Positions 18,346-52,462 of a stretch of 58,093 bases of DNA are shown in pieces. The first letter of the stretch is position 1, and the number at the start of each line of letters is the position of its first letter. Origin of the DNA: Spirochaetes bacterium ADurb.Bin218 (GTDB lineage Bacteria > Spirochaetota > UBA4802 > UBA5550). Made by a program: the position numbers and the translations under genes. The notes beneath the pieces were generated by a model. The model saw nothing but the letters and a program-made list of their open reading frames with translations, made no database searches and had not been told where the DNA came from. The stretch covers positions 1 to 58,093 of the forward strand of contig MWCI01000015.1 of NCBI GenBank assembly GCA_002069965.1, written 5' to 3'.

Positions 18346-18373
18346 ATTGTAGCATTTTAAGCAATCATGTCAA
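18346..18373 (-). promoter_or_regulatory. Promoter of the envelope/proC operon
   Basis: On the minus strand TTGACA (18368-18373), a 16-base spacer and TACAAT (18346-18351) stand just upstream of the 59-aa gene. No other strong candidate is seen. The non-autonomous repeat element at 18404-18523 ends 30 bases further upstream. With that element and the leader of the next plus-strand gene, this accounts for the 370-base gap 18299-18668. Confidence 0.65.
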
Positions 18374-18403
18374 TATTAATTCGTATAATTTTGAGGATTT
18401 TTT

Positions 18404-18523
18404 CAGTATTTATTCTTTAACTTCCTTTAAACTAAAATTACTCTATTACCCCCGAAACCTCTGGCTTCGGGGATAATATTTTCTTGATTTTACACTAAAA
18501 ATTATATTTAGGAATAATTACTG
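18404..18523. mobile_element. Non-autonomous inverted-repeat element (MITE-like), copy 1, 120 bp
   Basis: The ends are imperfect inverted repeats: CAGTATTTATTCTTTAA on the left (18404-18420) against CAGTAATTATTCCTAAA read from the right end (18507-18523), 14 of 17 matching. The element is bracketed by a perfect 9-base direct repeat GGATTTTTT at 18395-18403 and 18524-18532, the mark of transposition. The core holds a 7-bp hairpin CCCCGAA/TTCGGGG. It carries no open reading frame. A second copy with the same arms lies at 52347-52462 with a different core hairpin and its own 9-base duplication. Confidence 0.88.
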
Positions 18524-18668
18524 GGATTTTTTTGTCAAATTTTGATTTACAATAAAGTTCTTTTGTTTTAAACTAAGGGAGTCGATAAATTATATATAGC
18601 ATTTTTTTATACCTGTGTCTTTTATGGGATTTGAAAACTCCTTAAGATAACTTAAGCAGAGGAGAAAT

Positions 18669-19859
18669 ATGAGAAAGAAAATTTTTTTCATGGCAATTAT
18701 CTTTGTTTTTTCAACTATTTTTAGCTTTTCTTATGGTGCAATTGATCAGACCTATGTTGAGAGGATTTTAAAAGAAAATAGTGATTTCATTGCATTTATA
18801 GATTATGGAGTGACAAATTTTGCTCCAGACAAAAAAGAGGAGCTTTTTAATATTTATCAAAAGCATTTTAATGGGGAGATTGCCTATCTTCAGGGTGATT
18901 ATAAAAGAGCCTTTGATAGTGTTTATGATTCTCAGAAAGATATGGTTGCACTCTATGAAAAAATTTTGACTGACTATTATCTTGAGGATTCAAAAAATAT
19001 ACTGGATAACATAGCTCCTGAAATAATAAAATCAAAGGATGCTGCTGCACGGCAATACCTGACATTGGGTTACAGAGATAGAACTCTTGCAAGAACTCAT
19101 TATACAGTAGGAGAGGCCTCACACCCCAAACTATACTCATATAAACTTTATAAATATGTTGATGCTATTAATATGGCAAGGCGTGCTAAAAGGTATGGCT
19201 TTATAGCTATATACACAGGTCAGCCTCATGCTATTAAATTTAAAATTTATAACCAGCTTTTTAAGTCAGAAAATGAAAATGGCTCATTGTTTTTTAAGAG
19301 ATTTGTAGATAAAAATGAGCAGGACTTTATTAAGGAATTGGACAAAACTTATGAGGACTATGAAAAGGAATTTTCAGCTGAAGGTAATCAGGCAGCTAAT
19401 GCCTCAACAGATAAAAGCCAGCAAGAGAAGGTAATTAAGGAAATCCCCTTTGAAGGTAAGGTTGAAAGGAGTGTTAGATTTAGAAAGGAACAGAGAGTTG
19501 CAAGATATTTGCTCAATGGAGAGTTCGATAAGGCAGAGCCAATAATAAGAGGCTATGTTGATAATTATAACTTTAAGCTCATAACAGCAACTTTAAAGAC
19601 TCTGTCTTCATTAGATCATACAGGTGAGGAGGCCAGGCAGAGGCTTAACTATGAGAGTTTGCTCAAGCATCACAATGATAATTATATGTTGTTTAATGGG
19701 AAATCTATGCTGGAGAGCGTTCAGGGGGATGCGAAGGTTATAGACTCTTTAAGCTCTGCAAAGAAAAACAATGTAGTTGAAGATGATGTCAAAACCATTG
19801 AAACTCAAGGAGAAAAGAAAGAGGATAAACCTGCTGAAAATTCCTCTGTTAACAAGTGA
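18669..19859 (+). CDS. Exported protein of unknown function, 396 aa
   Basis: Residues 1-24 form a signal peptide (MRKKIFFMAIIFVFSTIFSFSYGA), so the protein is probably periplasmic or surface-located. The mature part is mixed helical, with tetratricopeptide-like spacing around residues 40-110 (NIYQKHFNGEIAYLQGDYKRAFDSVYDSQKDMVALY) and again around 270-320 (ARYLLNGEFDKAEPIIRGYVDNYNF). The C-terminal 50 residues are polar and probably disordered (DDVKTIETQGEKKEDKPAENSS). I do not recognise a family. The start has a GAGGAGA site, and just upstream two CTTAAG palindromes are separated by four bases. A 30-aa membrane protein gene follows seven bases downstream. Confidence 0.88.
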   Translation: MRKKIFFMAIIFVFSTIFSFSYGAIDQTYVERILKENSDFIAFIDYGVTNFAPDKKEELFNIYQKHFNGEIAYLQGDYKRAFDSVYDSQKDMVALYEKILTDYYLEDSKNILDNIAPEIIKSKDAAARQYLTLGYRDRTLARTHYTVGEASHPKLYSYKLYKYVDAINMARRAKRYGFIAIYTGQPHAIKFKIYNQLFKSENENGSLFFKRFVDKNEQDFIKELDKTYEDYEKEFSAEGNQAANASTDKSQQEKVIKEIPFEGKVERSVRFRKEQRVARYLLNGEFDKAEPIIRGYVDNYNFKLITATLKTLSSLDHTGEEARQRLNYESLLKHHNDNYMLFNGKSMLESVQGDAKVIDSLSSAKKNNVVEDDVKTIETQGEKKEDKPAENSSVNK

Positions 19860-39452: not shown

Positions 39453-39520
39453 CAGTATTTATTCCTTAACTTCTTTTAAAATAAAAAGCTCTGCGCTCTT
39501 CAGGATTACATAGGAGTAAA
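39453..39520. repeat. Truncated copy of the inverted-repeat element, within a gene-free 316-bp gap
   Basis: Positions 39453-39486 match the left arm of the elements at 18404 and 52347 almost base for base (CAGTATTTATTCCTTAAC and onward), but no right end or 9-base duplication is found. Beyond the arm the sequence (39488-39535) contains GCTCTGCGCTC and CAGGATTACA, resembling the CGCTGCGCTCAGGATGACA repeat of the 57.5-kb cluster, so it may be a chimera of two repeat types. The rest of the gap 39279-39594 holds a loose hairpin at 39389-39434 and a 12-base palindrome TATAGCGCTATA at 39558-39569; I see no gene there. Confidence 0.6.
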
Positions 39521-52346: not shown

Positions 52347-52462
52347 TAGTATTTATTCCTTAACTTTTTTAAAATAAAAAATACTCTATTACCCCATTTT
52401 GTCTGAAGCGAGACATATTTTCTTGATTTTACACTAAAAATTATACTTAAGAATAATTACTG
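52347..52462. mobile_element. Non-autonomous inverted-repeat element (MITE-like), copy 2, 116 bp
   Basis: Left end TAGTATTTATTCCTTAA (52347-52363) and right end reading CAGTAATTATTC from the other side (52451-52462). It is flanked by a perfect 9-base duplication TTAAAAAAA (52338-52346 and 52463-52471). The outer arms match copy 1 (18404-18523) along most of their length, including the block TTTTCTTGATTTTACACTAA, while the core hairpin differs (TGTCT/AGACA here, CCCCGAA/TTCGGGG there). No coding capacity. It occupies the middle of the 420-base gap 52259-52678, of which 52472-52584 shows nothing further. Confidence 0.88.

Follow-up and report, generated by a model that had tools for sequence, protein, structure and literature searches.

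A 120-bp block in a contig of the uncultured spirochaete Spirochaetes bacterium ADurb.Bin218 is very probably a non-autonomous MITE that has the same ends as an insertion sequence (IS) of the IS4 family and was moved in trans by an IS4-type transposase encoded elsewhere. The window analyzed here is a whole contig of 58,093 nucleotides (MWCI01000015.1; C15 in our numbering) from a 3.03 Mb draft genome (G000) in 160 contigs. Transposition in trans is the favored reading; what the sequences show directly is the structure of the ends, the copy number, the 9-bp target duplications, the empty orthologous sites (at the one locus compared) and a matching IS in related genomes. This connects a MITE of high copy number with an IS4-type transposase in a poorly studied group of uncultured spirochaetes, with the steps from intact IS through internally deleted IS and 120-bp element to decayed arms seen across one bacterial order.

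The repeated element and its target duplications

The 120-bp element has imperfect inverted ends of 17–20 bp (CAGTATTTATTCCTTAA / CAGTAATTATTCCTAAA). Its length leaves too little room for a transposase gene, and the ORF list of the window contains no frame of 100 or more amino acids overlapping it. A complete small element with a perfect 9-bp duplication had been proposed at this place in an earlier note on the same DNA, as had a recurrence of the same arms near 52.35 kb beside a different 9-mer; both descriptions hold (Table 1).

Table 1. Positions in the window of the element, its flanking duplications and its further copies.
Feature	Coordinates	Strand	Remarks
Complete MITE, 120 bp	18404..18523	+	GC-rich center, without genes
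Left 9-bp target duplication, GGATTTTTT	18395..18403	.	Exact match to right copy
Right 9-bp target duplication, GGATTTTTT	18524..18532	.	Exact match to left copy
Left terminal inverted repeat	18404..18423	+	Matches IS 3' end in relatives; CACTATTAATTCCTTAACTT against MITE consensus left end, 18/20
Right terminal inverted repeat, CAGTAATTATTCCTAAA	18507..18523	-	17/17 against IS 5' end in genome G014
Central GC-rich hairpin	18444..18478	.	Hypervariable among host-genome copies
Broken copy, left arm alone, joined to unrelated sequence	39453..39487	+	In the window
Second complete copy, 116 bp	52347..52462	+	In the window; first base T, not C
Left 9-bp duplication of second copy, TTAAAAAAA	52338..52346	.	
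Right 9-bp duplication of second copy, TTAAAAAAA	52463..52471	.	

The genome-wide copy search and flank tabulation suggested in the earlier note gave a clear picture. BLAST recovered 40 near full-length copies in the host genome, and a profile built from 32 copies marked 72 distinct places occupied by copies or fragments (E ≤ 0.01, de-duplicated). Identical 9-mers lie on both sides of 21 of 43 copies, and 8 or 9 of the 9 positions agree in 30 of the 43; random pairing of left and right flanks in 2000 shuffles gave 1.75 on average and at most 7. In none of the 43 copies does an exact duplication reach 10 bp; thus, the length of the duplication is 9. In an extended set of 63 copies, an exact duplication accompanies 19 of the 37 with well-preserved ends (≤3 mismatches over the two 20-bp ends) and none of the nine with more than eight end mismatches, a pattern that fits a gradual decay of the duplications over time. 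The target sites of the MITE copies are AT-rich. Given the two copy counts and the duplications relative to shuffles, it is confirmed that this is a repeated 120-bp block with flanking duplications far above chance.

The insertions are concentrated between genes and may affect promoter function. When the flanks of 30 copies were joined, with as much as 1.5 kb of context per side, no ORF of at least 100 amino acids spanned the insertion site (0/30). In the window, a pattern scan placed the insertion between two divergent promoter-like sites (18346–18574), one on the minus strand (TTGACA-16-TACAAT at 18373–18346) and one on the plus strand (TTTACA-17-TAAACT at 18546–18574). By a crude ORF-based count, divergently oriented frames flank 15 of 25 copies.

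Of the 20 family genomes searched, all but one have matches to the gene downstream of the window insertion (18669–19859), making 19 in total. At this one locus, G001 and G002 (of the same genus as the host) and G015 have the conserved upstream motif around TTGATTTACAATAAA and no element. Near the same place G007 has a weak end-like sequence (14/17 bases), which may be either chance or a remnant. Neither of the observations that the earlier note had taken to speak against transposition was made: most copies do have flanking duplications, and, rather than being conserved at orthologous sites, the element is missing from this promoter region in G001, G002 and G015.

Related elements and their source insertion sequence

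Beyond the host, at least three genomes of its family (G007, G011 and G002) contain related elements flanked by 9-bp duplications, and most of the copies there have a GC-rich palindrome in the middle. First, G007 (Spirochaetae bacterium HGW-Spirochaetae-5, of another genus than the host) has at least 22 matches to the element; its copies share the 120-bp layout of the host element, and 9 of the 20 examined are bracketed by exact 9-bp duplications. Second, a variant in G011 is also 120 bp long, and several of its copies have exact 9-bp duplications. Third, the variants in G002 are longer (~236–271 bp), several copies again lying between exact 9-bp duplications. At their center, several of these G002 variants (L191–L196) contain a further palindrome, TGTCATTCCGG...CCGGTATGACA, which is apparently a repeat of a different kind nested in the element. 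In G025, from another family of the order, a lone exact right arm (L052) stands beside a long near-perfect palindrome, AGTGTACACCCCGCCGCC..., which suggests a further element family in that genus.

A search of the family genomes with the 17-bp ends led to G014, where a decayed transposase gene is preceded by the exact right end of the MITE (CAGTAATTATTCCTAAA, 17/17), at a distance of 114 bp from its start codon. In this genome the exact end is carried by decayed and truncated IS copies, and the decayed protein used as a query retrieved an intact relative of 371 amino acids from the same genome. The complete IS spans 1232 bp between the ends CACTGTTAATTCCTAAA and CACTATTAATTCCTTAACTT, with a 9-bp duplication, AAATTAATT, on both sides. 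Its 3' end is identical to the left end of the MITE at 18 of 20 positions, and its 5' end differs from the right end of the MITE at 4 of 17.

The transposase is encoded by a single open frame free of frameshifts (L113:1015–2127). It matches Pfam PF01609 and scores 163.2 bits against the IS4-family profile NCBIfam NF033592 (cut-off 115), and the YREK signature of this DDE transposase, Y-(2)-R-(3)-E-(6)-K, is found as YRERWNIEVVFYWIK at residue 281. With YREK, a single frame, a 9-bp duplication and a match to a curated profile, it displays the features expected of the IS4 family, and the source element in G014 is, by its sequence, an IS4-family insertion sequence. A PDB search by sequence gave no match for the transposase at E ≤ 1. 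The earlier note had not recognized the element from known families; its ends do belong to one.

As a control, the ends of other DDE_Tnp_1-type transposases of the phylum were compared with those of the MITE and proved no closer than shuffles, with the exception of G034: distant IS4-type transposases have 7–10 mismatches at the 3' end, much as shuffles do, and G034, of the same order, has four. In G034 and G041 there are internally deleted IS copies (L109, L110) that retain both ends as well as pieces of the transposase gene; these look like IS-to-MITE intermediates and illustrate a route from an IS to a short element.

No relative of the 371-amino-acid transposase was detected in the host genome, a 160-contig draft, or in viral contigs. 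The MITE and the transposase are thus matched up across different genomes. The earlier note had called for a transposase gene with matching ends, and such a gene exists in relatives, as in G014, but not in the host genome. Solo arms were also inspected for a possible long element, two arms enclosing a gene, but yielded decayed or truncated copies alone.

The lack of a match in the host draft leaves a little room for an origin from a different IS that likewise makes 9-bp duplications and moved the MITE within the host lineage, its ends having converged on or been shared with those in G014. The host does have other transposases, two IS5-type genes on contig C31. However, both ends of the MITE match an IS4-type IS and its remnants in the same order, the duplication length is equal, and the host IS5-type genes lack the MITE ends; we therefore regard such an origin as unlikely. 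Those IS5-type genes, found by a PF01609 search, were rejected as a source, as were the IS1380- and IS1182-type genes of G007, which also lack the MITE ends. The two genes on C31 (L075 and L077) are near-identical and 3.7 kb apart, with one adjoining a DNA methyltransferase-like gene; the region is possibly a mobile island or a foreign contig.

Transposition in trans and comparison with known elements

The 120-bp element has the attributes by which MITEs are recognized: it is short and without a transposase gene, has inverted ends and fixed-length duplications, is present in many copies at non-orthologous sites, and has ends in common with an autonomous element, in this case in relatives. The proposal of the earlier note, transposition in trans by a transposase making 9-bp duplications, is still the best explanation, in keeping with the duplications at most copies. 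We infer from the shared ends that the movement in trans was due to a transposase of the G014 type or to a close relative of it now lost or unassembled, and the chemistry is inferred likewise. The MITE would have retained both ends of an IS4-family IS, with a short GC-rich palindrome in place of the transposase gene. A transposase encoded elsewhere would bind the 17–20 bp ends and cut the element out or copy it; the element would then be inserted into AT-rich DNA between genes at strand positions staggered by 9 bp, and repair of the stagger would leave a 9-bp direct repeat.

Target duplications in the IS4 family are about 10 bp long, ranging from 7 to 13 bp by subgroup (PMC2266710). Its IS4Sa subgroup has a complete YREK motif, 5'-CA ends (CA------T), sizes of 1150–1750 bp and duplications of 8–10 bp (PMC2266710). 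The source IS resembles it in its 5'-CA ends, 1232-bp length, 9-bp duplication and YREK motif in an uninterrupted frame, but the conserved T at position 9 is absent from the ends here. By size, duplication length and 5'-CA ends, IS4Sa would be the nearest subgroup, as a tentative placement. The element in the window differs from the IS4 family in being without a transposase.

MIC231 cassettes, which can carry passenger genes, are, like the window element, non-autonomous with the ends of an IS4-family IS; the window element differs in being only 120 bp long, gene-free, present at about 72 places and flanked by 9-bp duplications. In the Bacillus cereus group these non-autonomous cassettes have IS4-family (IS231) ends and are presumed to be moved in trans, and IS231 itself makes duplications of 10–12 bp (PMC2266710). 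The element shares with bacterial MITEs in general (e.g., PMC3852290) its short non-coding sequence, inverted ends, duplications, high copy number and intergenic location. It departs from them in its ends and host group, which are new, and in a core that is hypervariable in the host but uniform in G007. In the papers searched on spirochaete MITEs and IS4-family MITEs, no description of the 120-bp element was found. That it represents a new MITE family of the IS4 type in uncultured spirochaetes is well supported; the kind of element itself is well known.

The central hairpin

The core of the element folds into a GC-rich hairpin, terminator-like by pattern scan, and all copies examined are intergenic. 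Further, the paired positions of the stem covary more than in shuffles, with 26 versus 14.5 cells changed on both sides and a score of 0.181 versus 0.132, although these shuffles ignore relatedness. Such observations would suit a conserved regulatory or structured RNA, for instance a terminator or promoter-associated RNA, kept at orthologous sites and flanked by repeats through coincidence. This reading is largely refuted by the duplications, which are far above chance, and by the orthologous promoter region being empty of the element in relatives; we consider it very improbable. In addition, Rfam gave no match above the gathering score at the element, its sole match in the window being a tRNA elsewhere, and a chance-level match to snR83 near the element. 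Despite the covariation, the pairing of the stem is broken in many host copies, and we thus do not claim that the hairpin is conserved as a functional structure or as an RNA. A REP/BIME-type palindromic repeat spread by a RAYT (TnpA-REP) would also be short, intergenic and multicopy with a palindromic core, but movement by a RAYT-type Y1 transposase is not expected to leave target duplications, and with 9-bp duplications and DDE-type inverted repeats both seen here, this origin has next to no probability.

An oddity of the element is that its core behaves differently in related genera. Mean pairwise identity in the host is 0.58 for the 23-bp GC-rich core and 0.90 for the arms; in G007 it is 0.93 for the core and 0.87 for the arms. 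Mutational bias could explain part of the variability in the host, since the G/C columns of the host arms are also less conserved (0.75). Against bias alone, the host core falls below even these columns, and G007 displays the opposite pattern at a similar value for its arm G/C columns (0.74). It is possible, though we hold this only as a tentative suggestion, that the host core, which has mixed stem types and loops in both orientations (GAA or TTC), is rewritten much faster than the arms and is diversified by the processing of hairpins or by template switches as copies are made or repaired, and that the core in HGW-Spirochaetae-5 is held uniform. A hypervariable and a fixed core in related genera offer a testable case for hairpin-driven sequence change. 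Two host copies with common arm variants (L023 and L024) have the same hairpin stem, with a GAA loop in one and a TTC loop in the other, as in small hairpin-loop inversions.
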